Source: Nitrospira sp. | GTDB taxonomy: Bacteria > Nitrospirota > Nitrospiria > Nitrospirales > Nitrospiraceae | NCBI GenBank assembly: GCA_029194665.1 | Contig: JARFXO010000001.1 | Location: 682,001 to 746,000 of the forward strand | Reading direction: 5' to 3' | DNA: 64,000 nt | Part shown: positions 8,752-22,503 of the stretch, one piece after another | How the letters are laid out: each line of letters starts with the position of its first letter | Position numbering within the stretch: the first letter of the stretch is position 1 | The notes under the pieces: model-generated | The model's database searches: none | Seen by the model: the letters and a program-made list of their open reading frames with translations, nothing else | What the model was told of the DNA's origin: nothing | Translations under genes and position numbers: made by a program

Positions 8752-9723
8752 ATGGATGTCCAACGAATTTTTACCGCATGTATGGCCGGTCTCGTGACCC
8801 TCTCGCTACAGGCAGGGTCTGCAGCGGCGACCGAAAACCGGGCAGCTAAACCCGAGTCTGTTCCACCAACCTCCCTCCGATCAGATCCTCCTCCCCTGCC
8901 GGCGAAACCACCTGGTTCCAACGGCGATCACAAGGTTGGAGAGAAGAGCAAGTCGCCGACCAACGGTGGCGCTCCGTATCAGGTGACTGCGGCCTCTTCC
9001 GACGTCATGGGGAAAGATGGTGCGCCGATGGTGCTGGTACCGGCCGGTGAGTTTGTGATGGGAAGCGATAAGGGTGATGAGGATGAAGCCCCTGTGCATC
9101 GTGTCTATCTCAATGCGTTCTACATGGACAAATTCGAGGTGACGAACGGGCGATTCGCCAAGTACGTCGAGGCCATCCAGAGCGAACCACCATGGGGATT
9201 CACGGACAAGGACACGCCCCTGATCCATGCGGAACATCCTGTCCGCTGGGTGAACTGGATGGATGCGATGGGGTACTGCCTCTGGGTAGGCAAGCGACTT
9301 CCCACAGAAGCCGAATGGGAAAAGGCTGCGCGTGGAACCGACGAACGAGTCTATCCATGGGGCAATGATCCACCGACTCCGGTGCATGCGGTCTATGGGC
9401 TCAAGGAAGGCGGCGCGGAGACCGTATCGGTCATCGGCGATCACCACATGGGGCAAAGTCCGTACGGTGTGCAGGATCTGGCGGGGAATCTCTACGAATG
9501 GGTGATGGACTGGTATGCCGAGGACTTTTATTCCAGCTTTATCAACGGCCCCGCCGTCAATCCGCGTGGTCCCGGAGAGGGGACGGTAAAGGTTCAGCGG
9601 GGTGGATCGTACCTCAATACCCCGTATCGGCTGCGGTCGTCGTTTCGCACCAAGAGTGATCCAACCGAGCAAGATCCGAATGTGGGCTTCCGCTGTGCCC
9701 AGGATGTTCAGAAGCAACCGTAG
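8752..9723 (+). CDS. secreted FGE-sulfatase (SUMF1) domain protein
   Basis: A 323-residue protein with a signal peptide (residues 1-26), a proline-rich linker and an FGE/SUMF1 domain from about residue 87 to the end. Hallmarks are MVLVPAGEFVMGS, KRLPTEAEWEKAARG, YPWGN, NLYEWVMDWY and GFRCAQD. In genuine formylglycine-generating enzymes two cysteines near the C-terminal RGGS motif bind copper. Here that stretch reads RGGSYLNTPYRLRSS without cysteine, so oxidase activity is doubtful. It is the first of five related FGE domains within 14 kb and probably belongs to the same system, although 3.7 kb of other genes separate it from the next member. Confidence 0.85.
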   Translation: MDVQRIFTACMAGLVTLSLQAGSAAATENRAAKPESVPPTSLRSDPPPLPAKPPGSNGDHKVGEKSKSPTNGGAPYQVTAASSDVMGKDGAPMVLVPAGEFVMGSDKGDEDEAPVHRVYLNAFYMDKFEVTNGRFAKYVEAIQSEPPWGFTDKDTPLIHAEHPVRWVNWMDAMGYCLWVGKRLPTEAEWEKAARGTDERVYPWGNDPPTPVHAVYGLKEGGAETVSVIGDHHMGQSPYGVQDLAGNLYEWVMDWYAEDFYSSFINGPAVNPRGPGEGTVKVQRGGSYLNTPYRLRSSFRTKSDPTEQDPNVGFRCAQDVQKQP

Positions 9724-10285
9724 GAGGCTGGTCGGCATCTGTTATGCCTTATGCATCGGCTCCCAGAAAAGCGCGACGTGGCTCTTGACAAGATCTCCTA
9801 ATGGGCGTAGGGAGAGAAGCCTGCGGCCCATCTATCAATCGAAGGTCGAGAGATCGGGTAGTACGCGCGGCTGCCATCCAGGTCTCTCGGTAACTTCATC
9901 GCGAGAGGAGGGTGGAGATGGACGACACGACGCCACCTGGCCCATCAGGCCCACCGGTGCAAGGGTGGGTTTCTTGTCGGTCATGCTGACCAGTTCTCCG
10001 CCGGCTGTGCCGGATCGGCACGGAGAGCCCTCATAATGCAGGGTGAAAGCCATTCTTGAGCGGAGAAACCATCGGTAGCAAGAGGAACACAGGCACCCGG
10101 GATTGACGAGGTCTCCCCCGACTGGAAACCGTGGACCACCGGAAGTATCGCGTGGGTCTTGAGGGCCGCGACAACAGACATACTAGAAATATTTGCGGCG
10201 TCCTAAGCGCCAAATCGCGGGCGACCCCCCACCGTAGTGCAAGGTCGCCCGCGCTGTTTCTAAATCCTTCCCTCTTTGTCCCTGT
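9724..10285. other. gene-poor intergenic stretch
   Basis: About 560 bases between the convergent FGE-domain and glycerophosphodiesterase genes. Several short frames exist on the minus strand but none has a convincing start, ribosome site or recognisable protein. Near its right end there is a clear hairpin (listed separately). It may contain decayed coding sequence. Confidence 0.4.
10217..10252. terminator. GC-rich hairpin with T-rich tail
   Basis: A perfect 10-base-pair stem, GCGGGCGACC pairing with GGTCGCCCGC, with a 16-base loop. On the plus strand it is followed by a pyrimidine-rich tail (GCTGTTTCTAAATCC). It lies downstream of the minus-strand glycerophosphodiesterase gene. Confidence 0.6.
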
Positions 10286-10975
10286 TCAAATGCGATCCGG
10301 GAAGTTCGAAATAATCCCATCCACGCCGAGCGTTTTCATCTCCTTGATCTTGGCAGGCTTATTGACGGTGTAGACGAACACAGTCAGCCCCGCCTTGTGG
10401 AAGGCCTTCACCCGACGTTTCGTAACAGTATTGAAACGGAGGCCTACGTGCGTGGCTTGCAGCCTGATGGCTTGTGCGACAGGGGCTTTGGAAAACCACT
10501 TGAAGAGGACCAACGTGTCGGCCTGCGGATCAATGTTTCGTACCTGTTGAAGTTCATCATGCAGGAATGAGGCATAGATAACCGAGCGGTCCTGGCCACT
10601 GGCGCGGACCATGGCACAGACATCATTGGCTAACCCTTTGGTCTTCAGCTCCAGAATCAATCCAATTCGTCCCTTGGCGGCCCTGAGAGCTTCCTCCAGC
10701 AGCGGAACCATCTGACCGTTACCGGCATCCAGCTTTCGAATATCTGAAAGAGTCAGGTCAGAAACCCGCCCGCGACCGTTCGTCGTGCGGTCTACCCGCT
10801 CGTCATGCAGGAGGACCAGTTCATCGTCGGAAGTTCGTTGGATATCCACTTCAGTAAAGGCGCATCGGAGTGCAATCGCTTGCTCGATGGAGGCCAGTGT
10901 ATTTTCCGCTGCATACCCGCAGGCGCCGCGGTGGCCGATGCGGAGAATCTTTTGGTTGGGGCTTTCATTTGCCAT
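10286..10975 (-). CDS. glycerophosphodiester phosphodiesterase
   Basis: A 229-residue cytoplasmic GDPD-family protein, a TIM barrel that hydrolyses glycerophosphodiesters to glycerol 3-phosphate and an alcohol. The catalytic HRG (His15-Arg16) with AENTLASI follows the start. The metal ligands in EVDIQRTSDDELVLLHDE and the second catalytic histidine in LLHDE are present. No signal peptide is seen, so it is probably a cytoplasmic UgpQ-like enzyme. Its start codon overlaps or abuts that of the divergent ParB-like gene. Confidence 0.92.
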   Translation of the reverse strand: MANESPNQKILRIGHRGACGYAAENTLASIEQAIALRCAFTEVDIQRTSDDELVLLHDERVDRTTNGRGRVSDLTLSDIRKLDAGNGQMVPLLEEALRAAKGRIGLILELKTKGLANDVCAMVRASGQDRSVIYASFLHDELQQVRNIDPQADTLVLFKWFSKAPVAQAIRLQATHVGLRFNTVTKRRVKAFHKAGLTVFVYTVNKPAKIKEMKTLGVDGIISNFPDRI

Positions 10976-11996
10976 GGCTCTGTCCTACCATATCGCGGTG
11001 GCCAAACAGAAAGCGAAAAAACCGCCGCTACCCAAAGGGGTGAGACGGCGTCGGAAGCCGACCGGGGCTTCAACCGGTTTGGCGGCCGGGGAGCTCCAAG
11101 CGGCTGCACCGCCTGGGACAGTGGCCGAGTTGCATCAGGCGGTCGAACAGGATAGCGGGAAGGTCCTCTCGATCTATCGCGAACCTTACGGAGGACATTG
11201 GTTGGTGCTTGCCGCCTTGCCGATCGAGCTGGTCGAGCCGACACCCTATCAACGCAATATCTCTGACATGCATGTTCGCAAGTTGGAAGCGGTCATCGGA
11301 AAAATCGGTCGCTTTCTCGACCCCATCATCACCGTGAGAATCGCAAAACCCGATCATGAAGCGAAGTACTGGACACCGAACGGCAACCATCGTCTGTCCG
11401 CCATGAGGACCCTGGGGGCGAAGAGCATCATCGCGATCGTGGTTCCAGAAGCGGCTGCCGCCTATCAGATTCTCGCGCTGAATACGGAGAAAGCGCACAA
11501 CCTGCGCGAAAAGGCGCTGGAAGTGATCCGGATGTACCGGGAGTTGGCACAACTCGATCACGCAACGGAAGATGCCTATGTCTTGGAGTTCGAGGAGCCG
11601 GCGCTGATTACGCTGGGGCTCTGTTACGAAGAACGGCCTCGCTTCAGTGGCGGCGCCTACCATCCGGTGCTGAAGCGGGTGGATGAATTTCAGAAGGAAC
11701 GGCTGCAGGCAGCTTTGAGCCTTCGCCAGCAGCGGGCGAAGACCGTCCTGGCGCTGGATGATCTCATCGTCAAACAAGTCGAGGCCCTCAAAGCCAAGGG
11801 GCTGACCAGTCCCTATCTCAAAAGCTTCGTCGTGGCCCGGGTGAATCCCATTCGCTTTCGTCCCAAAGATGCGCCGCCCTTGTCGTTCGACGACGCGCTC
11901 GATCGCATGACCCAGGCTGCGCAGAAGTTCAATCCGGATAAAATCAAGATGGACGATCTGGCGAAGTCAGGCGGCGCGCCGGACGAGAGTGAGTAG
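10974..11996 (+). CDS. ParB/sulfiredoxin-fold nuclease-like protein
   Basis: A protein of about 340 residues with a basic N-terminus rich in lysine, then a ParB-like domain. It shows the pattern PIELVEPTPYQRN ... PIITVRI ... WTPNGNHRLSAMRTLGAKSI. The GNHRL segment corresponds to the phosphate-binding GxxRxxA box of ParB-fold proteins. The C-terminal half is helical and unassigned. The start is uncertain: ATG 10974 overlaps the start of the divergent gene, and GTG 10998 gives MAKQKAKK-like N-terminus and avoids the overlap. It stands alone, not near a parA, so it is unlikely to be the chromosome-partition ParB. Its role is unknown. Confidence 0.75.
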   Translation: MALSYHIAVAKQKAKKPPLPKGVRRRRKPTGASTGLAAGELQAAAPPGTVAELHQAVEQDSGKVLSIYREPYGGHWLVLAALPIELVEPTPYQRNISDMHVRKLEAVIGKIGRFLDPIITVRIAKPDHEAKYWTPNGNHRLSAMRTLGAKSIIAIVVPEAAAAYQILALNTEKAHNLREKALEVIRMYRELAQLDHATEDAYVLEFEEPALITLGLCYEERPRFSGGAYHPVLKRVDEFQKERLQAALSLRQQRAKTVLALDDLIVKQVEALKAKGLTSPYLKSFVVARVNPIRFRPKDAPPLSFDDALDRMTQAAQKFNPDKIKMDDLAKSGGAPDESE

Positions 11997-12463
11997 GGCT
12001 ACCGATCAGAAACACCGGCAGAAGGCCCGGTATCCTAGGTCGTTGCTGGTGAAAACTCCCATCACGTACCCTGATGCTGGTACTGTGGCTGATCACCATT
12101 CCTGAGGCTTATGGAATGTCCCCTTCGAATCAACCATGCTATATTTTGTACCACTTATCCCCCCTGAGCCTTCGGGCCAGGGTGCGAGGCCAGTTTCCGC
12201 AAGGGGCTGGCCTCAGTGTTTTTACCCTCTTTTAACCAAATCCAGCCATTTTTCCTGTAGGCTCCAGAACGGTGGAGCGTTATCAATCTCGTCCATCATA
12301 GCGCAGCCGGTGTCCGCCACGAAGGTCCAGATCCGATTTCGTCTCATTCAATGAGCGCGGTTCATGGATTCCTCGCTAGACTCACTTACGTAGCTGGATT
12401 ATACTCCTTGCGAATTTGGAATCGTCACACAATCGATTCGTGCCTATTCTCTTAGGCGCTGCG
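11997..12463. other. intergenic region with a stem-loop
   Basis: About 470 bases without a supportable gene. It contains one strong hairpin (12186-12214) and AT-richer sequence before the next gene. The run of structured G/C segments around 12160-12215 could be a terminator or a small structured RNA. I could not match it to a known riboswitch. Confidence 0.4.
12186..12223 (+). terminator. intrinsic terminator candidate
   Basis: Perfect 8-base-pair stem (GAGGCCAG pairing with CTGGCCTC), 13-base loop, then AGTGTTTTT. This is a classical Rho-independent layout on the plus strand. It lies about 190 bases after the ParB-like gene, which is far for that gene's terminator, so it could end a separate short transcript. 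Confidence 0.6.
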
Positions 12464-13210
12464 ATGACTCGCATAGTCCTGCGGAATATCCTCGTGCTGG
12501 CCTGGCTGATGGCCCCCCTGCCTCTTTGGGCCGATGCCAACCTGGAGTACCAAGACCGTGGCGACCGCTCCGAGGGACAAAAACCAAAGCCGGTCTCAGG
12601 CTATGACATCGAAGTCATTTCCGTTCTGGCCGACTACCAGGAGCCCGCAACGCAACTGCCCGATCAACTCCGGATCGGATTCTATCTCCGGAGCCAGACG
12701 CCAGTTCATCTCACCGTTCGGGAGCTGGATTATCGGCTCTACTATTGGCTCGACAAGGTAAAACCAGCGAAAGGATGGCAAGCCAAGTCGATCAATGAGT
12801 TCACCTGGCCGACAGGGGCGGTGCTGCGACAGTTGGATCAAAAGCTCAACCCCTATGAGTTGGGCGTATTGATACGCCTCGGAAAGGGAACACCGACCGA
12901 CAACGAAGAGATCGCCCCGGCGATCTTCTATCATGTACAGCCTCCCGACAAGATCGGCGGGTACCTGTTCACCATGAAGACCAACGGGGATGCGCGGCTT
13001 TCCTGCAAGGTCTTTCGAGGCAGAGAGCAGGCCGAGCTCATGACGCAAGTGTTCCGCAGACTTCCCGGAGGGCGGCCGTTCACCGTACGGTGGGACGCGG
13101 GAGGCGTGCCGGAAGGCCAGTATTCTCTCGTCTGCGACGGCTATTTTCTCGATACCAACCAGCCTCTACGACAAACCGTGTGGTTCTTTCACAAGCCGAC
13201 TGTGCGGTAG
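12464..13210 (+). CDS. secreted protein of unknown function
   Basis: A 248-residue protein. The start at ATG 12464 (MTRIVLRNILVLAWL) gives a normal signal peptide likely cut after LWADA. The mature part is beta-rich (DYRLYYWLDKVKPAKGW, PFTVRWDAGGVPEGQYSLVCDG). The last segment resembles an immunoglobulin-like fold. No enzyme motif is visible. It precedes the TIR cluster but is separated from it by a palindromic repeat element, so a link is uncertain. Confidence 0.65.
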   Translation: MTRIVLRNILVLAWLMAPLPLWADANLEYQDRGDRSEGQKPKPVSGYDIEVISVLADYQEPATQLPDQLRIGFYLRSQTPVHLTVRELDYRLYYWLDKVKPAKGWQAKSINEFTWPTGAVLRQLDQKLNPYELGVLIRLGKGTPTDNEEIAPAIFYHVQPPDKIGGYLFTMKTNGDARLSCKVFRGREQAELMTQVFRRLPGGRPFTVRWDAGGVPEGQYSLVCDGYFLDTNQPLRQTVWFFHKPTVR

Positions 13211-13254
13211 CGGGCGATGCAGGCCTAGTGTTGTGTCCCAGAAGTTCTTATTGG

Positions 13255-13382
13255 CGTCCGTTCGCCCTGAGCTCGTCGAAGGGTGTGCGGTTTCAGGCAG
13301 TTCCGTTCATGCGGTTCGACCGAGCTCACCGCAGGGTTCGACTGGCCTGCCCTGAGCTGGGCGAAGGGCTCACCACGAACGT
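13255..13382. repeat. pair of REP-like palindromic repeats
   Basis: Two related copies of the motif CCCTGAGCtnGnCGAAGGG occur at about 13265-13283 and 13350-13368, flanked by CGTTCG and CACGAACG. This is the palindromic type of extragenic repeat seen in many environmental proteobacteria and Nitrospira. It sits directly upstream of the first TIR gene and could form a hairpin in the leader. Confidence 0.6.
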
Positions 13383-13411
13383 ATTGCGGGATGCAATCGT
13401 AGGTAGCGGCC

Positions 13412-15052
13412 ATGAGCGACATCTTCATCAGCTACTCCAGCAAAGATCGCCCCTGGGTCGAACGATTCGCGAAGACATTAGAGGCGCACGGCTGGTCGGT
13501 CTGGTGGGATCGCAACATACCCACCGGTGGATCCTTCAACGCTGTGATCAGACGGGAGCTTGGGACCGCCAAATGCGCGATCGTCGTGTGGTCTGAACAG
13601 TCCGTCGAGTCCGAGTGGGTCCAAGCGGAAGCTGCCGAAGCTAAGAAACAAGACAAGTATCTCCCCGTCAAGATTAATCAGAGTGATATTCCACTTGGCT
13701 TTACCCAGCGGACCTTTCAATCCCTGGTGGATTGGGAAGCCGGCGTCGAGCATGCCGGGTTCTCCCAGTTGCTCAAGGATATTGAACGACTCGTCAAGCG
13801 TCCACCGACGCAAGTTGAGTTCGGCCCTACGCCTTGGTGGAAACGCGTTCATCCCATCTGGCTTGTTGGTTCCCCGGCCATCATGGCGGCAGTGGTCGTG
13901 GTCGGACTGATGCTGTGGCCTGTGTCTGCGCATGTCCGAATAGACCTCACAACGGAGCGCATCGAGTTCGAGGTCGGTGCCAAGGAATCACAGGATTCCT
14001 TTACGCTTGCGGGGATGGTTGCGGACTCAGTCGGGATCGAGAACTTCGAGGCGATCACGTTTGCGCCTTCAACGGTTGAGGTGGCGGACCCCTCTCAATA
14101 TCAATTTGAGGAAGATACATATCCGGACAAAGCGTGGCGACAGCTGGCCCTCGCCGATTCCGAAGTCGCAATAGTTGCGAATCATCAGGCACGACGTTCA
14201 CGAGTGGTGCTTGAAGAAACAAGCGCCAGCAAACGAGAGCCGGTTAAGCTGGATTCCATCGAGGTGAAGTCAAAGTCGCGAGTCTCACTCGAAACGCGAG
14301 AGAAGGAAAAGAGAGAGAAAAAAGAGGAGAGAGACAAAAAGGATACGAAGGTGAAGACTGAGAAGAGAGAGGGTGTCACGATCAGAGTCGCTGGGCAGAA
14401 CGAGTCCATCCTGCGTCCAGGCCGACAGTTCACCTTCATCGCAGATCATGTGGAGATACACGGACTCAAAGGCTTGCCCTTTAATCAAGATGATGAGTTG
14501 ACCTATCGTATCACGTTGCCGGACCAGCGATCTCGCGTCATGGTCAAGGCGGGGTCAGATGAACTGGTCTTATTACCGACATTCGCGTTAGGGCAATCGG
14601 CGCACCAGGTGTTTGGAGGTATCCCTGTTACCACGGTCGATTTCACCCGACAAGCCAGCGAGGCCGACGGTGGTAGGCAAACTCTCGTCAAAGGTGGCGC
14701 GCGGATCAGCGCGTTGACCGGCGATGGGACGATTACCTTTCCAGGTTACGAACATCTCCTTGGTACGGTCTCGATTAAGCAGGACGAAGCCGTTGGATTG
14801 GAGCATCTCGACGGATTCACCATTCAGGAGCTCAGCCTGACGGCCAATGAGACCGGTATGCGTCTAGTGGGTGAAGGCATGGCCAAGGAGATCCGCACGA
14901 GGTCCGGCCAGGTTCCGATCCAGAAGCACAGCCTGACCGCACTGGACGCCTTATGGCATAATGCGCGGCTCGCGGTGTTTCTGACGATTATTGTCACGGT
15001 GTTTACGACCAGTCTCGGGGCCTATCGGCTGTGGAAGGAGTTTAAGCGATGA
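13412..15052 (+). CDS. TIR-domain protein with two membrane spans
   Basis: A 546-residue protein. Residues 1-130 are a TIR domain (DIFISYSSKD at 3-12, GWSVWWDRNIPTG at 27-39, SEWVQAE with Glu73). Glu73 is at the position of the catalytic glutamate in NAD-cleaving TIR proteins. Residues 149-169 form a membrane span. A highly charged segment rich in Lys/Glu/Arg lies at about residues 290-325. The long region 170-520 is otherwise beta-rich and unknown, and a second span at about 518-535 ends in a basic tail. It overlaps the next gene by 4 bases (ATGA), so the two are translationally coupled. It has no nucleotide-binding domain of its own. Confidence 0.88.
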   Translation: MSDIFISYSSKDRPWVERFAKTLEAHGWSVWWDRNIPTGGSFNAVIRRELGTAKCAIVVWSEQSVESEWVQAEAAEAKKQDKYLPVKINQSDIPLGFTQRTFQSLVDWEAGVEHAGFSQLLKDIERLVKRPPTQVEFGPTPWWKRVHPIWLVGSPAIMAAVVVVGLMLWPVSAHVRIDLTTERIEFEVGAKESQDSFTLAGMVADSVGIENFEAITFAPSTVEVADPSQYQFEEDTYPDKAWRQLALADSEVAIVANHQARRSRVVLEETSASKREPVKLDSIEVKSKSRVSLETREKEKREKKEERDKKDTKVKTEKREGVTIRVAGQNESILRPGRQFTFIADHVEIHGLKGLPFNQDDELTYRITLPDQRSRVMVKAGSDELVLLPTFALGQSAHQVFGGIPVTTVDFTRQASEADGGRQTLVKGGARISALTGDGTITFPGYEHLLGTVSIKQDEAVGLEHLDGFTIQELSLTANETGMRLVGEGMAKEIRTRSGQVPIQKHSLTALDALWHNARLAVFLTIIVTVFTTSLGAYRLWKEFKR

Positions 15053-16518
15053 TGGTCCGTGCAGTGTTCGCAGCATGTATCGTGCTCATCGGGTTCACTC
15101 ATGTGGAGTTGGTTAGTGCGGAGGATATCGCGCGGCTCCAGGCTGGGGTGGTCAAGGTTACTGCCAAACCACCACAAGGAACGACAAACGTCGGCACTGG
15201 GTTCATTGTTCGTGTGGACAAGGATGCGGCCTATATCGTGACGGCGGCTCATGTGGTGGCCGGAGACCAACAACCCAAAGTGGAATTCTTCACCAAGCGA
15301 AACATGCCGGTGATGGCTGAGGTGCTGGGGTTGGAAGGTGATGATGAGGTGAGAGGCTTGGCGTTGTTGGTCGTAAAGGGAGCGGAGAATATTCCGAAAG
15401 GTCTTACCTCGTTGTCGCTTGTCGGAGCTGCGCGACTGACGGGCGGCGAAGATATCCTGGTGATTGGCTTCCCTCGCAATGCTGGGCCTTGGGCGATCGT
15501 GAAAGGCAATATCTCATCGCGGCAAGGGCGAGACATCTTCTTTTCTCCTTCCGTCGAGTCAGGCCATTCCGGTGGGCCGATCTTTCAAGGCGGGAAGGTT
15601 GTTGGTGTCGTCGGTTCGGGAGGCCAGTCAGTTGGGCGAGGGGTTACTGTCGGAAGTGTCGAGGATTATCTTGAGGGCTTTGGGATCACAGCGCAAGAAA
15701 GCGCAGGCAGCTCGTCCGCATCCACGACTCCTGCACCCTCACCACCACCGCCCGCAGCCACGGCCAAACCGGAGGTACAGTCCATAACACTGGCACGCGA
15801 GATCACCGGCAAGGACGGTGCGCCGATGGTGCTCATTCCGGCTGGGGAATTCTGGATGGGCTCACCGGACAGCGAAGGGAGGAAAGACGAACACCCGCGT
15901 CATCAGATCTATCTGGACGGGTTTTACATGGACAAGTTCGAAGTGACGGTTGCGAGATATACCGAATTCGTGCGGGCGAAGAACAGGCCGAAACCTGGCT
16001 ATTGGGATCAGGTGGACAGCAGCAAGCATTGGAATCTTCCGGTCGTGGGGGTCAATTGGGATGATGCAAAAGCCTATTGCGAGTGGGCTGGGAAACGATT
16101 ACCTACAGAGGCGGAGTGGGAGAAGGCTGCTCGGGGAACGGATGGACGAACATACTCATGGGGTAATGAAGGACCGACAGCAAGGTTGGCCAACTTTGCG
16201 AAAGGTCTCACGACGCGCGCCTATAAGGAAGGCCTTGCACCGGTTGACAGCTACGAAGCGGGCAACAGTCCGTATGGACTCCACCATATGGCTGGCAACG
16301 TCTGGGAGTGGACGGCGGACTGGTATGACGAGACCTATTACATCAAGAGTCCGGCACGCAATCCGACCGGGCCTGCGAGCGGCCTATTTCGTGTGGTCCG
16401 CGGTGGGTCCTGGAGCTATGAACCGGACGTCCTACGGTCCGCCTACCGGCACAAGGATTTACCGACGAGCCGGTCCGACTCTATCGGGTTCCGGTGCGCC
16501 CAGGACGTTCCGAAGTAA
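15049..16518 (+). CDS. secreted trypsin-like protease / FGE-domain fusion
   Basis: A 489-residue protein. It has a signal peptide (1-24), a chymotrypsin-fold protease domain (about 26-210), a Ser/Pro/Ala-rich linker (218-245) and an FGE/SUMF1 domain (255-487). Protease His68 (VTAAHVV) and Ser174 (SGHSGGP) are present. Where most HtrA-like proteases have Asp in DLALL, this one has Gly103 (RGLALL), so the third triad residue is missing or moved. The FGE domain lacks the two copper cysteines after RGGSW. Its start overlaps the TIR gene stop by 4 bases, which ties protease/FGE and TIR into one functional unit. Confidence 0.87.
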   Translation: MMVRAVFAACIVLIGFTHVELVSAEDIARLQAGVVKVTAKPPQGTTNVGTGFIVRVDKDAAYIVTAAHVVAGDQQPKVEFFTKRNMPVMAEVLGLEGDDEVRGLALLVVKGAENIPKGLTSLSLVGAARLTGGEDILVIGFPRNAGPWAIVKGNISSRQGRDIFFSPSVESGHSGGPIFQGGKVVGVVGSGGQSVGRGVTVGSVEDYLEGFGITAQESAGSSSASTTPAPSPPPPAATAKPEVQSITLAREITGKDGAPMVLIPAGEFWMGSPDSEGRKDEHPRHQIYLDGFYMDKFEVTVARYTEFVRAKNRPKPGYWDQVDSSKHWNLPVVGVNWDDAKAYCEWAGKRLPTEAEWEKAARGTDGRTYSWGNEGPTARLANFAKGLTTRAYKEGLAPVDSYEAGNSPYGLHHMAGNVWEWTADWYDETYYIKSPARNPTGPASGLFRVVRGGSWSYEPDVLRSAYRHKDLPTSRSDSIGFRCAQDVPK

Positions 16519-16736
16519 CCTTTACACTTTGACTCTATTTCCTTTTCTCCGGTCTTCGCTCTTGGTTTCTCGGCACGAGACATTGAGTGTCAGTCGAGAA
16601 TTCTCATGACGGGGGAAGAGACCGGTAGCCTTCCAGTCGCCGTCACGAAAGCTAAGATCCAGGGCTCTTTTCATCGGCCGGGCGGAGAATTGCAAGGATG
16701 AATAGGCTGATCTATTCTCGATATGGTATCTGATTA

Positions 16737-17048
16737 ATGAGTGATATCCTTGTTCGCATCAAGCGCGCTGTGTTGGCGGGGCATTATGTGTTCAGCGAAA
16801 AAGCGCGTTTGGAGATGGAAGCGGACTGTCTCACTGAGCTGGATATTGCCGAATCAATTCTCAATGCTGTGGCCATCACAAAAACGATTCGTTCGACTAA
16901 TCCGTTTCGGCAGAGCAAAAGGGAACGTCTCTAAATTATTCACAGCACAAACCTGACTGGATTTCCCATTTAGACGAAGGGTAGACTGGTCTTCGAAGCC
17001 GGCGTCGAAACCTACTACTTTCTGATCTCTTCGAAGCGAAGTTTGTAG
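16737..17048 (+). pseudogene. DUF4258 toxin-like gene with two nonsense mutations
   Basis: The reading frame continues for 103 codons but is broken by TAA at 16932-16934 and TAG at 16974-16976. Reading through gives RERL*IIHSTNLTGFPI*TKGRLVF and then ETYYFLISSKRSL. In DUF4258 proteins both stops fall where tyrosine (TAC/TAT) is expected, so each is a single-base change. DUF4258 is a RelE/ParE-like toxin family. The next gene is a YgiT-type zinc-finger antitoxin, the usual partner. The toxin seems inactivated while the antitoxin survives. Confidence 0.75.
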
Positions 17049-17067
17049 GGAGGCCACGGTCGTTTCA

Positions 17068-17277
17068 ATGCTCAAGATCACCAAGTGTCCTCGTTGTGGC
17101 AGTGCCAAAATAAAGCGAGTCAAGCGGAATTGGACCGGCCACTTCCAGGGGCAGGTCTATACGGTGCCTGGGCTGGAGCTTTATGAGTGTCCCACATGCG
17201 GTGAGAAAATCTACGATCGCCAAGCCATGCAAAAAATTGAGGCTCACTCTCCAGCCTTCGTGAAAATTCAGGCGTAG
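17068..17277 (+). CDS. YgiT-type zinc-finger antitoxin
   Basis: A 69-residue protein with two CxxC pairs, CPRC at residues 7-10 and CPTCGEKIYD at about 42-51. This is the YgiT/MqsA N-terminal zinc-finger type found as antitoxin beside DUF4258 toxins. It lacks the longer C-terminal HTH of MqsA. It follows the broken toxin by 19 bases on the same strand. It may now be an orphan antitoxin kept by chance or still acting on another toxin. Confidence 0.8.
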   Translation: MLKITKCPRCGSAKIKRVKRNWTGHFQGQVYTVPGLELYECPTCGEKIYDRQAMQKIEAHSPAFVKIQA

Positions 17278-17351
17278 TGTCCGGATGGCCAGGCTCGCGT
17301 CCTTGATCTGTGACTCCACGCTTCCGTCCAATCGTACTGCGGTAGATTCGT

Positions 17352-17522
17352 TCATCGTTGGGTAACTTTTGGGGTTGGCGCGAGTGCCATGTCGCCGGAA
17401 AGGTCGGCGTTGTCGTTGAGCAGGTTGGAGAGGGCAGGCCGGGAAACGCCAAGCGCCTCGGCGGCCACTTTGACCGAAAGTCCGTTCGGCGCAATGATCT
17501 CCCTCAGTGACCGTACGTGATC
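17352..17522 (-). pseudogene. HigA-type antitoxin fragment
   Basis: An uninterrupted minus-strand frame of 56 codons with no start codon reads VRSLREIIAPNGLSVKVAAE and then ALGVSRPALSNLLNDNADLS. This is the helix-turn-helix core of HigA/VapI antitoxins. It begins right after an in-frame TAG and ends at TGA soon after the HTH, so both the N-terminal start and the C-terminal end of the family are missing. It overlaps the region just before the next protease gene. With the DUF4258/YgiT pair it marks a toxin-antitoxin graveyard. Confidence 0.6.
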
Positions 17523-17524
17523 CT

Positions 17525-18796
17525 ATGTCCATCGTAAGAATTACTTTCTTCCCGGTAGCCTTTTTCCTGCTGTCCACATTCCTGCTTCCGGATCATCTCT
17601 TGGCGCAAGACAGTAATGACCTCAAGCGCGGCGTGGTGAAGATCACTGCGCGGGGAGAGGGCCAGCAGCCCAAGGTCGGGACAGGGATTGTCGTGCGAGT
17701 AGACAGAGACGCCGCGTATATCGTCACGGCGGCGCATGTGGTTGAAGGAGATCCTAAGCCCACCGTGACCTTTTTCCCCAACCCCCAGCAACCACTTGTC
17801 GCCCACGTGGTCGGGATTGAAGGCGGAGATCCTCATGGGCTCGCCGCCCTGCATGTGGCTGGGCCTATCCCAGACGGCGTGGTGGCGCTGCCGCTGGATC
17901 TGACAACGAAGGTGATCGGCGGCGAGGCGCTCACGTTCATCGGCTTTCCACGGACGTTACCGCCTTGGACTGTCTCGACTGGCAGTCTGAGTGGGATGAG
18001 CGGGCCGACCCTCGCGTTTCAGGCTCTGGTGGAAGAAGGCCATTCCGGTGGCCCACTCTTGCTGAACGGGCAGGTGATCGGCGTTGTAAGCGATGCCAGA
18101 GGTCGGCAGGGGTATGCCGTTCCCGCGTCGATCCTTGCCGTCGCTCTTCGTGGATGGCGGATTGAAGCGCGTGCGAGCGACTCGATGGCGCCGCAGGAAA
18201 AAATCGGCGCGGACGGCGTCCCCATGGTGCTGATCCGGTCAGGGCGCATCCCGAGCAAGATGGTGGAGGTCTATGGCGGGGGGAGGGCGGAAGAGGTTCA
18301 AGGTCCTGCACGGTCTGTGTATTTGACTGACGATCTGTATGTCGAGAAAACGCTGGTCACGAACGCGCGCTATCGCCGATTTGTTGAGGCCACCGGCGTA
18401 ACGCTTCCTCCAGACCTGATGGAGCAATCCGCGTCGCTCGATCTCGATGGACCGGTGGAAGGTGTGACATGGCACAATGCCGTAGCCTACTGCCGATGGG
18501 CTCGGAAGCGGCTCCCGACGGAAGATGAGTGGGAGAAGGCGGCACGTGACACGCAGGGCCGGATCTTGAACGACCAGGTGTATGAGTGGACGGCCACCAC
18601 GTACCAAGAAGGCCGATGGAATCCCTCGCCACCGGAGGACGAGACGCGCAAGGTACTTCGGGGGAATCTTCAGGCTCTCGGCATTCGTGAGGCTATCGGC
18701 GAGCTCGATTATCAGGTGCGCATGTACGCGAGTGCCTACGATGGAGCGCCCGGCAGAGGCTTTCGCTGCGTACAGGATCTCGCGAAGGAACGATAG
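17525..18796 (+). CDS. secreted trypsin-like protease / shortened FGE-domain fusion
   Basis: A 423-residue paralogue of the protein at 15049. The ATG at 17525 (MSIVRITFFPVAFFLL) gives the signal peptide, likely cut after LLAQ. The protease part has His71 (VTAAHVV) and Ser174 (EGHSGGP). As in its paralogue, Gly105 (HGLAAL) replaces the usual Asp. The FGE part is degenerate: KRLPTEDEWEKAARDT is kept but the YPWGN and SPYG segments are lost and the C-terminus RGNLQALG lacks the RGGS box. The protease therefore seems the conserved component. It lies downstream of the antitoxin remnants on the same strand. Confidence 0.83.
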   Translation: MSIVRITFFPVAFFLLSTFLLPDHLLAQDSNDLKRGVVKITARGEGQQPKVGTGIVVRVDRDAAYIVTAAHVVEGDPKPTVTFFPNPQQPLVAHVVGIEGGDPHGLAALHVAGPIPDGVVALPLDLTTKVIGGEALTFIGFPRTLPPWTVSTGSLSGMSGPTLAFQALVEEGHSGGPLLLNGQVIGVVSDARGRQGYAVPASILAVALRGWRIEARASDSMAPQEKIGADGVPMVLIRSGRIPSKMVEVYGGGRAEEVQGPARSVYLTDDLYVEKTLVTNARYRRFVEATGVTLPPDLMEQSASLDLDGPVEGVTWHNAVAYCRWARKRLPTEDEWEKAARDTQGRILNDQVYEWTATTYQEGRWNPSPPEDETRKVLRGNLQALGIREAIGELDYQVRMYASAYDGAPGRGFRCVQDLAKER

Positions 18797-18879
18797 GCTT
18801 TCTCCACCTTGCCCTTCCGCTCAATGCCCCTTTAGAATATCCCTGAGATAAACTGATTCGCACTGATGAGGAGGCTCAA

Positions 18880-19230
18880 ATGGGTCTTGCAGACAATAAA
18901 TGTGTTCCCTGTCGTGGCGGGGTGCCGCCGCTACCGAATGATCGAACTCAGGCGTTATTGAAGGAGCTGGGCCAAGGTTGGACGCTCAATGGGCAAGGAC
19001 ATCTTGAGCGGTTGTATACGTTCAAGGACTTTGCGCAGGCGCTGGCTTTCGTGAACAAGGTCGGTGCGGTTGCTGAGGCAGAAGGTCATCATCCTGATCT
19101 GTATCTGGCCTGGGGGAAAACCAAGGTGGAGATCTGGACACACAAGATCAATGGCTTGACTGAGAGCGACTTCTACTTGGCAGCCAAGGCGGATCGGGAA
19201 TTTGAACCGTTCCGATCCGCTGCCGGTTAG
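18880..19230 (+). CDS. phhB: pterin-4a-carbinolamine dehydratase
   Basis: A 116-residue protein of the PCD/DCoH family, which dehydrates 4a-hydroxytetrahydropterin and recycles the pterin cofactor. The active-site motif GHHPDLYLAWGKTKVEIWTH carries His70, His71, Pro72 and His88. It starts after a strong ribosome site (GAGGAGGCTCAA). The N-terminal NKCVPCRGG, a CxxC, is typical of many bacterial members. It sits inside the TIR/FGE cluster but is a common housekeeping gene, so a link to the cluster is not assumed. Confidence 0.93.
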   Translation: MGLADNKCVPCRGGVPPLPNDRTQALLKELGQGWTLNGQGHLERLYTFKDFAQALAFVNKVGAVAEAEGHHPDLYLAWGKTKVEIWTHKINGLTESDFYLAAKADREFEPFRSAAG

Positions 19231-19276
19231 CCGGCAACATAACTCCCTGCCATGAACGATCGAGGGGGGCATCGGG

Positions 19277-20248
19277 ATGCCTTCGAAATCTGAGGGTGAA
19301 CAACCTTCTTCCGTGCCTGACCGGCAGCCACCCCTCACAGGCGCCAGTACTGATACGCAGCAGCCTGGTGCCTCGACCAGGGCAGCACAATCAAAGCAGT
19401 CACCACCATACCTCATCATCGGAGCGGGCCTGCTCGTGGTCGTGGGAGCATTTGTGGGGCAATGGATCTTGTCACCTATCCCTACTTCTATTCTCACGAG
19501 GAATCCGTCAACCCAGAGCGAGGGGAGTACGCAGGACCTTGGGCTTGCGCCGATGGTCCTGGTGCCGGCTGGGGAGTTCATGATGGGGGCCCGCCAGGAT
19601 GACACCATGGCGGCCAAGGATGAGCGGACCGCCCATGCGGTGCAACTGGATGCCTTCCATATCGACCAATATGAGGTCACCACCGCTCGCTACGCCAGAT
19701 TTCTTCAAGAGACGAAACGAGGCGCGCCAAAGTACTGGTCAGACCAGATTCCCCAGAGGTATGGAAACAAGCCTGTGATCGGGGTGGACTGGAATGACGC
19801 AGCCGACTACTGTGTCTGGGCTGGGAAACGCCTACCGACCGAAGCTGAGTGGGAGAAGGCTGCGCGAGGGACGGACCAACGTCTGTATCCATGGGGGAAT
19901 GCGGAACCCAGTCAACAACGGGCAAATTTCGACCACTGTTGTGATTTTAACGCCTATGAGGTCTTGAGCGACGTCGGCTCGTTTGAAGAAGAGAAGAGCC
20001 CCTACGGTGCCTCTGATATGGCCGGCAATGTGTGGGAATGGGTGGCGGACTGGTACGATGGGGGCTATTACGGCAAGAGCCCGGAGCGCAATCCGACAGG
20101 GCCTTCGAGTGGTGAAAAACGCGTGCTCCGTGGTGGGGCCTGGGACTCGACTCCGGCCTACGTTCGCTCCGCGGACCGCCTCAAGCTCTCACCCACGTTT
20201 CGGCACGACAATATCGGCTTCCGCTGCGCCCAGGACGTTCCGAAATGA
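19277..20248 (+). CDS. membrane-anchored FGE-sulfatase domain protein
   Basis: A 323-residue protein. A polar, Pro/Ser/Thr-rich cytoplasmic N-terminus (1-43) precedes one membrane span (about 45-66), then the FGE domain (92-322) in the periplasm. Motifs are MVLVPAGEFMMGA, KRLPTEAEWEKAARG, YPWGN, NVWEWVADWY, RVLRGGAW and GFRCAQDVPK. The copper cysteines of true FGE are absent, but a neighbouring pair HCCDF is present at about residue 222 and is shared only with the next FGE protein. The two are near neighbours in sequence and look like a recent duplication. The start follows GAGGGGGGCATCGGG. Confidence 0.86.
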   Translation: MPSKSEGEQPSSVPDRQPPLTGASTDTQQPGASTRAAQSKQSPPYLIIGAGLLVVVGAFVGQWILSPIPTSILTRNPSTQSEGSTQDLGLAPMVLVPAGEFMMGARQDDTMAAKDERTAHAVQLDAFHIDQYEVTTARYARFLQETKRGAPKYWSDQIPQRYGNKPVIGVDWNDAADYCVWAGKRLPTEAEWEKAARGTDQRLYPWGNAEPSQQRANFDHCCDFNAYEVLSDVGSFEEEKSPYGASDMAGNVWEWVADWYDGGYYGKSPERNPTGPSSGEKRVLRGGAWDSTPAYVRSADRLKLSPTFRHDNIGFRCAQDVPK

Positions 20249-20405: not shown

Positions 20406-21953
20406 ATGAGTCACATCTTCATCAGCTACGCCAGTGAAGATCGGAAACGTGTTCAGCCGCTGGCACAGGCTCTGGCGAAAAAAGGCTGGTCGGTCTGGTG
20501 GGATCGTCGTATTTTTCCGGGCAAGTCCTATGACGAGGCCATCCACGAAGCCTTGAAAGCAGCCAAGTCCGTGGTGGTGGTATGGACCAAAACCTCGGTG
20601 AAAAGCACTTGGGTCAAGAACGAATCGAGGAGCGGCTTGCGACGGGGCATCTTGTTTCCGGTGATGCTCGCGGATGAGGTCGAGATCCCTTTGGAATTCG
20701 AGCATGTGCAAACCGCTCAATTAGTGGATTGGCAGCCGGATCAGGATCACCCCGAGTTCGACCAATTTATAGAGGCTCTGGCCGGGGTCATCGGTCCACC
20801 CCCTGATGGTCCACTATCTGACGTGAAACCGGTCCCGCCCTGGCCGAAATACCTCTCCGGTGGACTTGGTCTCCTGGCGATAATTGGAGCGTTGTTCTAT
20901 TTTGTGTTCTTTACGCCTACGACTATACAGCCCCCTGGGGTGATCAAAACGCTCCCTCTACAAGAGCAGCCCAAGCCACCCACTGTAGCGCAAAAGAAAC
21001 CGAAGCCACCCGTGAAAGGCGAGAGCGCTCCACTGAGCGCAGCACCCAGCGTAGGCTTGAGTAAGGAATCGCCGCAGGCCGCAAGCCAAGAGAAGCCGCC
21101 CTCACCCTGTCCAGAACCACCGGAGAAGCCTGTGTTGCCTACAACCGAGGGAACATCAGCTGCCACGGGAGAGGTAACAGCCGGCAACAATCCGGCAGCC
21201 GGGTCAGGATCGACGGCTAGCCCGACGAAGATCATCACGGGCAAGGACTGTGCGTCGATGGTGCTGGTGTCGGCTGGAGAATTCACCATGGGCTCACGTG
21301 AAGAGGACGAGAGTGCTAAGAGCGACGAGCGACCGACCCATTCAGTGTATCTCGATGCCTATTATCTCGATCAATATGAAGTGACAACCGCTCGCTACGC
21401 CACATTCTTTCAGGAGACAAAGCGGGCTGCGCCGAAGTATTGGTCTGAACAGGTCCTGAAGCACCATGGGTATAAGCCGGTGGTTGGAGTGGATTGGAAC
21501 GATGCCGCTGTCTACTGCTCCTGGGCGGGGAAACGCTTGCCCACCGAGGCTGAATGGGAAAAGGGCGCGCGAGGAACTGATCAGCGGTCTTATCCCTGGG
21601 GGAACGAGGCATCAAGCGAGCAGCGAGCGAACATTAGTCACTGCTGCGATTTTAGAGATTATGGTGTTCTGACCGATGTGGGGTCGTTTAAGCAGGGGAC
21701 GAGTCCTTACGGCGCGCATGACATGGCCGGCAATGTCTTGGAATGGGTGGCGGACTGGTACGACCCGAACTATTACAGCAAGGGTCCGGAGCGCAATCCA
21801 AAAGGTCCTTCGCGTGGCGAGTATCGGGTGCGCCGCGGTGGGTCCTGGACCAGTGCTCCGGACGACGTACGATCCGCAGACCGGTACGGGGACACACCCT
21901 CGGCTCGGGGCGACGCTCTCGGGTTCCGTTGCGCCCAAGACGCTCCGAAGTAG
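20406..21953 (+). CDS. TIR / membrane span / FGE-domain fusion protein
   Basis: A 515-residue protein joining the two halves of the cluster in one chain. It has a TIR domain (1-130, HIFISYASED, GWSVWWDRRIFPG, STWVKNE with Glu73), a membrane span (149-169), a Pro/Lys/Ser-rich linker (170-270) and an FGE domain (275-513). The probable catalytic Glu73 is at exactly the same residue as in the first TIR protein, and the span is at the same distance. ATG 20406 is chosen because the TIR motif follows directly. The topology places TIR in the cytoplasm and FGE outside. Confidence 0.9.
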   Translation: MSHIFISYASEDRKRVQPLAQALAKKGWSVWWDRRIFPGKSYDEAIHEALKAAKSVVVVWTKTSVKSTWVKNESRSGLRRGILFPVMLADEVEIPLEFEHVQTAQLVDWQPDQDHPEFDQFIEALAGVIGPPPDGPLSDVKPVPPWPKYLSGGLGLLAIIGALFYFVFFTPTTIQPPGVIKTLPLQEQPKPPTVAQKKPKPPVKGESAPLSAAPSVGLSKESPQAASQEKPPSPCPEPPEKPVLPTTEGTSAATGEVTAGNNPAAGSGSTASPTKIITGKDCASMVLVSAGEFTMGSREEDESAKSDERPTHSVYLDAYYLDQYEVTTARYATFFQETKRAAPKYWSEQVLKHHGYKPVVGVDWNDAAVYCSWAGKRLPTEAEWEKGARGTDQRSYPWGNEASSEQRANISHCCDFRDYGVLTDVGSFKQGTSPYGAHDMAGNVLEWVADWYDPNYYSKGPERNPKGPSRGEYRVRRGGSWTSAPDDVRSADRYGDTPSARGDALGFRCAQDAPK

Positions 21954-21999
21954 TCCGTACACTGTGACACTGTTTTCTTACATTTCAAAGGGGGACGTT

Positions 22000-22503
22000 A
22001 TGGCAACTGACGACTACTTCCTCAAAATCGATGGGATTCAAGGTGAGAGCACCGATGATAGGCATCGAGGAGAAATTGAACTAGATGCCTGGTCGTTCGG
22101 AAGGGCGGTATCAGGTGCTCTCCAGCCGGGAGGCGCCGGCGCCGGAAGATTCAATGCGCCGGACTTTCACTTTACGGCGAAGATCAGTCAGGCTTCGCCG
22201 ATGCTCTTTCTAGCATGTGCTACCGGTAAGCACATGCTGAAAGCGACCATGACCGGAAGGAGAGCCGGCGACCGGACACAGGACTATTTGAAGGTCACGC
22301 TGACGGATGTGGTGGTCTCTTCCTATCAACAGAGTGGATCGGGCGGATCCGGTGTAGTTCCTCTTGACCAAGTCTCGTTGAACTACGCCAAGATTGAACT
22401 GGAGTATAGGAGGATCAATCCGGATGGCTCGCTTGGAGGCCCAGTCATGGTGAGTTTCGACGTGAAAAAGAAAACAGGACCCTCTCGAAGAAGGCGCCGG
22501 TGA
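22000..22503 (+). CDS. Hcp-like protein (type VI secretion tube family)
   Basis: A 167-residue protein starting at ATG 22000 after AAAGGGGGACGTT. The N-terminus MATDDYFLKIDGIQGES, the segment GEIELDAWSFG, the FTAKISQASPMLF stretch and the VTLTDVVVSSYQQSG segment are characteristic of Hcp1. In type VI secretion Hcp hexamers form the inner tube. The C-terminus has a basic tail (KKKTGPSRRRRR). No VgrG, TssB/C or ClpV gene is present in the window, so this is an orphan Hcp. It lies 46 bases after the TIR-FGE gene on the same strand, so it is likely the last gene of the cluster. Confidence 0.88.
   Translation: MATDDYFLKIDGIQGESTDDRHRGEIELDAWSFGRAVSGALQPGGAGAGRFNAPDFHFTAKISQASPMLFLACATGKHMLKATMTGRRAGDRTQDYLKVTLTDVVVSSYQQSGSGGSGVVPLDQVSLNYAKIELEYRRINPDGSLGGPVMVSFDVKKKTGPSRRRRR

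Follow-up and report, generated by a model that had tools for sequence, protein, structure and literature searches.

A TIR-bearing membrane protein of Nitrospira with a predicted outer domain of FGE fold, and evidence that its loop was written by a diversity-generating retroelement

Sensors of the C-type-lectin fold (FGE/FGS subtype) that are diversified by diversity-generating retroelements (DGRs) have been described by Dore et al. 2024 (PMC10907252) in multicellular bacteria, among them Thiohalocapsa PB-PSB1, and DGR-diversified FGE-fold sensors in multicellular bacteria have been linked to TIR and trypsin effectors (PMC10907252, PMC7159879, PMC8195603). STAND-FGS conflict systems (PMC8195603, PMC7159879) show the combination also found in Nitrospira, namely an FGS sensor, a TIR effector and a link to a DGR. 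Cyanobacterial multidomain DGR variable proteins (PMC7517822) likewise carry a C-terminal lectin variable domain on signalling domains, including TIR-like ones, and they include targets remote from the DGR. A further likeness is to variable protein 1 (TvpA) of Treponema denticola (2y3c), which has the same FGE-type lectin fold and a C-terminal DGR variable region, and which works outside the cytoplasm. TvpA is a surface lipoprotein without a TIR domain or signalling span, unlike the protein described here. We know of no cellular DGR target with a proven function; a leading idea is that such targets are hypermutating immune sensors.

The Nitrospira proteins share with the PB-PSB1-type sensors (PMC10907252) the FGE-subtype lectin fold, a C-terminal variable region (VR), an accessory protein Avd, reverse transcriptase (RT) and template (TR), targets in trans, TIR and trypsin-like partners, and a proposed role in antigen sensing, and some of the PB-PSB1-type targets are predicted to be periplasmic. 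The PB-PSB1-type targets, however, act via STAND NTPases or MoxR/vWA, whereas in the protein under study the TIR is connected to the variable domain by a single span plus a disordered linker, and no NTPase is present; a Pfam scan of the protein under study and of eight other proteins around it detected no NTPase. Nitrospira also has TIR-STAND-span-FGE proteins (G002, and contig C47 of G075), which resemble the STAND-FGS systems, while the gene under study lacks a STAND module. The cyanobacterial proteins differ in being mostly cytosolic kinases, only 13 of them being predicted membrane or secreted proteins, and in the part of PMC7517822 consulted no TIR-span-lectin receptor was found. Toll-like receptors also combine an outer ligand-binding domain, a single span and an inner TIR, but the likeness is one of analogy only, because their outer domain is unrelated, their N-to-C order is reversed, and loop diversity in Nitrospira comes from a retroelement. 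What sets the Nitrospira protein apart is the one-chain, NTPase-free, membrane-spanning layout; our search of the open-licence literature found no description of Nitrospira DGRs with TIR-span targets.

The gene occupies positions 20406-21953 of the window (the whole 64,000-nucleotide stretch of Nitrospira sp. DNA that was analysed; all window features given below lie on its forward strand) as a single uninterrupted frame that encodes 515 aa. The original prediction, that a TIR domain with Glu73, a span at residues 149-169 and an FGE domain are joined in one chain, is borne out by the reading frame, Pfam and hydropathy. The TIR domain (residues 4-119, positions 20415-20762; Pfam TIR_2, E 3e-23) matches TIR structures in fold, and its putative catalytic glutamate, Glu73 (20622-20624), aligns in or beside the motif that carries the glutamate in NAD hydrolases of the AbTIR type. 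It is followed by the single span (20850-20912), by a linker rich in Pro, Ala, Thr and Lys (20913-21248), and by a domain of the FGE-sulfatase family with a C-type-lectin-type fold and no catalytic cysteine pair (21249-21935; residues 282-510, Pfam E 3e-59). Structure prediction, which had been proposed as a check on the fusion, recovers all of these parts: the AlphaFold model, for which 52 aligned sequences were the input, contains the TIR fold with a pLDDT of about 60-84, helical structure at residues 153-169, a disordered linker at 170-272 (pLDDT below 50 across most of it) and an FGE domain that is modelled with confidence, for the most part above 90. The predicted topology of the chain, with the TIR domain inside and the FGE-fold domain outside, agrees with the presence of only one span, with the lysines that immediately precede it, and with the signal-peptide-like or N-terminal spans of nearby FGE-fold proteins.

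If the fusion were a misassembly or a frameshift, then the same layout would not be expected in other genomes, yet the domain order recurs. Independent Nitrospira assemblies encode TIR-span-FGE proteins in one frame, with lengths of 654 aa in G012, 636 aa in G018 and 595 aa in L107, so this explanation is rejected; broken frames occur only in G001 and G003, both of which are fragmented assemblies. The TIR modules of these proteins are 69-78% identical to the TIR of the window protein while their FGE modules come from differing sub-families, which indicates that the TIR has been combined with outer modules of more than one kind; in G007 a TIR is followed by in-frame repeats and not by FGE, and two Anaerolineae genomes (L139 and L153) also contain TIR-span-FGE frames, the TIR of L153 being seen only weakly. 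Contig C5 of the window's own genome encodes a TIR-FGE protein of 393 aa without a span, so that the two domains are not always separated by a membrane. The claim that FGE and TIR act on opposite sides of the membrane thus fits the predicted topology of the present protein and is no rule for the domain pair. Similarly, the fusion supports the claim that the two act in the same complex insofar as both modules work in one protein, and it is no evidence of a complex between the separate FGE and TIR proteins encoded nearby.

The identity of the outer domain can be judged from its active-site region. Alignment to solved FGEs extends through the active-site loop, and by alignment to 1y1e and the list of cysteines there is no cysteine at residues 415-508, the place of the FGE copper-binding pair (human Cys336/Cys341); the candidate function of active formylglycine-generating enzyme was rejected on this ground. 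The fold match to FGE 2q17 (Z 29.9, 228 aligned residues, rmsd 2.4) reflects a shared fold only, and the domain is close to TvpA as well (Z 27.1, 222 aligned, rmsd 2.7). With the catalytic cysteines missing and the C-terminal loop coinciding with a DGR variable region, the domain is, as judged from sequence, not a formylglycine-generating enzyme, and it is most likely a C-type-lectin-fold ligand binder. A reading in line with the original prediction, a membrane complex with an active FGE-type enzyme outside and TIR inside, draws on the strength of the FGE-family fold and on the abundance of FGE-family genes and TIR genes in the same genome, but the cysteine-free loop is template-randomised and hypervariable between orthologues, and we regard such an enzyme as extremely improbable. 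Annotations of “FGE-sulfatase” beside TIR or trypsin genes may denote hypervariable sensors and not enzymes.

The DGR itself was found by an RT search of the genome, which located an intact RT with the motifs IGNQTSQ and YVDD on contig C10, beside an Avd gene (NCBIfam DivGenRetAVD, E 3e-30). The 114-bp TR lies 3' of the RT at C10:1584-1697 (loci L027/L073); it is A-rich, encodes RGGSWNNEPDNVRSANRNRNIPTKRNDNIGFRCAQD, and has the appearance of a typical DGR template. Its counterpart in the window gene is the VR formed by the last 114 bases of the FGE domain (21829-21942), which is changed at 19 of the 33 template adenines and at 7 of the 81 other bases (p=9e-8). The same bias is found in a trypsin-FGE target on C5, the closest target (16/33 adenines against 1/81 others), in an FGE target on C7 (21/33 against 4/81) and in a trypsin-FGE target at 15049 in the window (17/33 against 9/81). 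For two further FGE genes of the genome, set against the same TR, p was 0.17 and 0.005, and 24-25 non-adenine bases differed. The window gene and five other targets are old paralogues, with upstream third-codon identities of 43-60%, while within the VR their third positions agree at 73-88% where the template base is not adenine and at 33-45% of template-adenine sites. Agreement above the upstream identity at the former sites together with low agreement at the latter is the pattern expected from copying of one template with randomised adenines. It is therefore strongly supported, on these comparisons, that the loop was DGR-written; the number of loop sequences possible from the template was computed as up to about 1e15.

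No target of this DGR is visible in cis because C10 begins just before Avd. The end of C7, where the target VR lies 126 bases from the contig end, and the start of C10 at Avd were compared, and no sequence overlap was found. The same genome has a second RT in a 572-aa frame (L026, G000:C3:74310). Two of its FGE genes, L091 (C1:284125 region) and L092 (C1:1016646 region), match the G002-type TR, with changes at 12/32 adenines against 8/78 other bases and at 18/32 against 7/78 respectively, which suggests that they were once targeted by another DGR lineage, a second one, that was not found in this genome.

Comparison with a sister genome separates variation of the loop from general divergence. 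In Nitrospira sp. 4_1_May_SF_Bin59 (L107) the TIR-span-FGE orthologue is followed directly by Avd, RT and TR, and its VR differs from its own TR at 18 of 34 adenines and 2 of 78 other bases (p=1e-9). Between the window gene and this orthologue the upstream FGE sequence is 76% identical, the 16 variable codons 14% and the constant codons 100%; for the G001 orthologue against that of L107 the corresponding values are 82%, 29% and 94%. The control is the window's span-FGE gene (19277-20248), whose VR-like tail (20124-20237) is frozen across species: its closest orthologues share 87-90% identity upstream of the tail and 94-100% at the corresponding codons. The hypervariation is thus specific to the TIR-span-FGE orthologues, where it is confined to template-adenine codons, and is no general property of the loop. 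Chance or selection alone as the cause of the adenine bias was rejected on the two further FGE genes set against the TR and on the frozen gene, which shows that variation between orthologues is not inevitable. At about 7670-7680 of L107, close to where the VR ends, one inserted base puts the final codons of the target out of frame; possible readings are a real loss, a retrohoming error, or a collapsed assembly of a variable site.

The wider genus contains the same association. Complete DGR cassettes stand beside TIR-STAND-span-FGE targets in G002 (VR against TR, 21/32 adenines and 0/78 others, p=7e-15), in G022 and on C47 of G075 (18/29 against 0/61), beside a STAND-FGE target on C100 of G075 (18/31 against 0/59), and beside a trypsin-FGE target in G082 (10/29 against 0/61). 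G075 has three complete cassettes in all, on C47, C100 and C135 (L196, L197 and L107), with TIR-STAND-span-FGE, STAND-FGE and TIR-span-FGE targets respectively. What follows the TIR-bearing FGE gene in G001, G018, G057, G049, G012 (two loci) and G004 is a shortened Avd, limited to roughly its first 45-57 codons. Given these cassettes and Avd remnants across the genus, TIR-span-FGE proteins are, on the evidence of gene order and template comparison, recurrent DGR targets in Nitrospira. The truncated Avd genes, which have no RT (L237:2384-2581, L082:9866-10084, L231:5945-6163, L232:6510-6689, L234:2734-2895, L235:2311-2523 and L236:2472-2669), look like remnants of cassettes, and their similar cut point may mean that the stretch is copied as a unit or that its sequence is required in cis.

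Whether the window copy is still being rewritten is a separate question from whether it was once written. Inspection of aligned codons shows that 5 of its 7 non-adenine changes are silent, and its VR carries the TR-like sequence GCCCAAGAC, with a CAAGAC homing site, while nearly all other targets carry GCCCAGGAC (CAGGAC). No inverted repeat with arms of at least 6 bp was found directly 3' of the VR. A 41-base sequence, CCTTTACGCTTTGACCCTGTTTCCTTTTCTCCGGGTCTTGG, is conserved across species after the stop codons of target genes, and is a candidate for a DGR element that acts in cis; it shows no clear hairpin. Most targets match it at 32-39 of 41 positions, whereas the copy after the window gene (21954-21994) is decayed, at 22/41, where the 99th percentile of random scores is 21. 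The element also occurs at 16519-16559 of the window and after the targets of L074, L075, L076, L081, L083, L098, L107, L109 and L229; after frozen span-FGE genes the match is 18-27/41, and after the TIR-span-FGE gene of G012 it is 24/41. The non-adenine changes, the TR-like homing site and the decayed element together make current rewriting doubtful, and the loop, written by a DGR in the past, is now probably fixed or rarely rewritten, in a gene that is itself intact. The same three features could be taken further, to a retired target that is now an ordinary single-specificity TIR receptor or is slowly decaying. However, the open frame is intact, the constant residues are kept, the genome still has a DGR with an intact RT, and DGRs that act in trans have been described (PMC10907252), so that we consider full retirement rather improbable. 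It would in any case concern only the window copy and would leave the preferred reading of the family as it stands.

In the proposed mechanism, template RNA is copied by an error-prone RT with its adenines randomised, and the copy replaces the VR; the outer domain, predicted to be periplasmic and of C-type-lectin fold, would then bind a ligand such as a phage particle, another cell or a surface molecule; binding would cluster the receptors via the span and bring the TIR domains together; and the clustered TIR domains would carry out an NAD-consuming or signal-making reaction by which the cell is halted or killed. That the protein is a DGR-written TIR-span-lectin receptor is, taken alone, very probable. 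The full chain, which includes TIR signalling in defence, is moderately probable, since we infer how the receptor is oriented, what it binds, that it clusters, that its TIR is active and that it serves in defence; the TIR domain, for example, is a putative NAD hydrolase or immune effector by virtue of one aligned glutamate. More tentatively still, the NTPase-free single-pass TIR receptors of Nitrospira, with their DGR-hypermutated outer loops, might be outside-in, Toll-like immune receptors in which the TIR has been shuffled onto different lectin modules between species. PADLOC returned no full-length match to a model of a known anti-phage system, only partial TIR matches.

The genus grows as dense microcolonies, a habit that would suit a DGR-written receptor sensing neighbours, surfaces or particles in adhesion, aggregation or kin recognition, with the TIR as a scaffold or regulator and not as a killing effector. 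Roux et al. (PMC8144416) place most cellular DGR targets in a class of membrane-anchored binders whose domains serve adhesion or the binding of carbohydrates. Lectins written by a DGR could suit adhesion or recognition between cells just as well as defence. We nevertheless regard this reading as the less likely one, because the TIR retains the Glu-bearing motif of NAD-hydrolysing TIRs and because related targets elsewhere in Nitrospira are TIR-STAND proteins of antiviral-STAND layout. A one-chain TIR-span-lectin target dispenses with the NTPase middlemen and ties the sequence of the loop directly to the TIR readout, and this direct link, in a genus with cultured members, would make the immune-sensor idea testable.

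The neighbourhood of the gene contains further proteins of the same families. The companion TIR protein (13412-15052; Pfam, hydropathy) has a TIR domain, a span, an outer part without known fold and a second span; as originally noted, its Glu73 and the start of its span near residue 149 match the fused protein, and the outer parts differ. Two secreted trypsin-like proteins follow: that at 15049-16518, with an FGE domain, is the second DGR target in the window (VR 16394-16507; 3' element 33/41), and that at 17507-18796, with a partial FGE domain, showed no VR match in the TR search. Both may share ligands with the receptor. An Hcp-like gene (T6SS tube protein family; 22000-22503) starts 46 bases past the stop codon of the receptor gene on the same strand, and was not seen as a conserved partner beside the TIR-span-FGE gene in the relatives examined. 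The island at 8752-20248 comprises an FGE-family gene at its edge (8752-9723; genome search), two families without Pfam matches (10785 and 12416), the TIR-span-outer gene, the trypsin-FGE genes and the span-FGE gene, with a pterin-4a-carbinolamine dehydratase gene (18880-19230) among them, and is kept in other Nitrospira (L081, L084, and in part L109).
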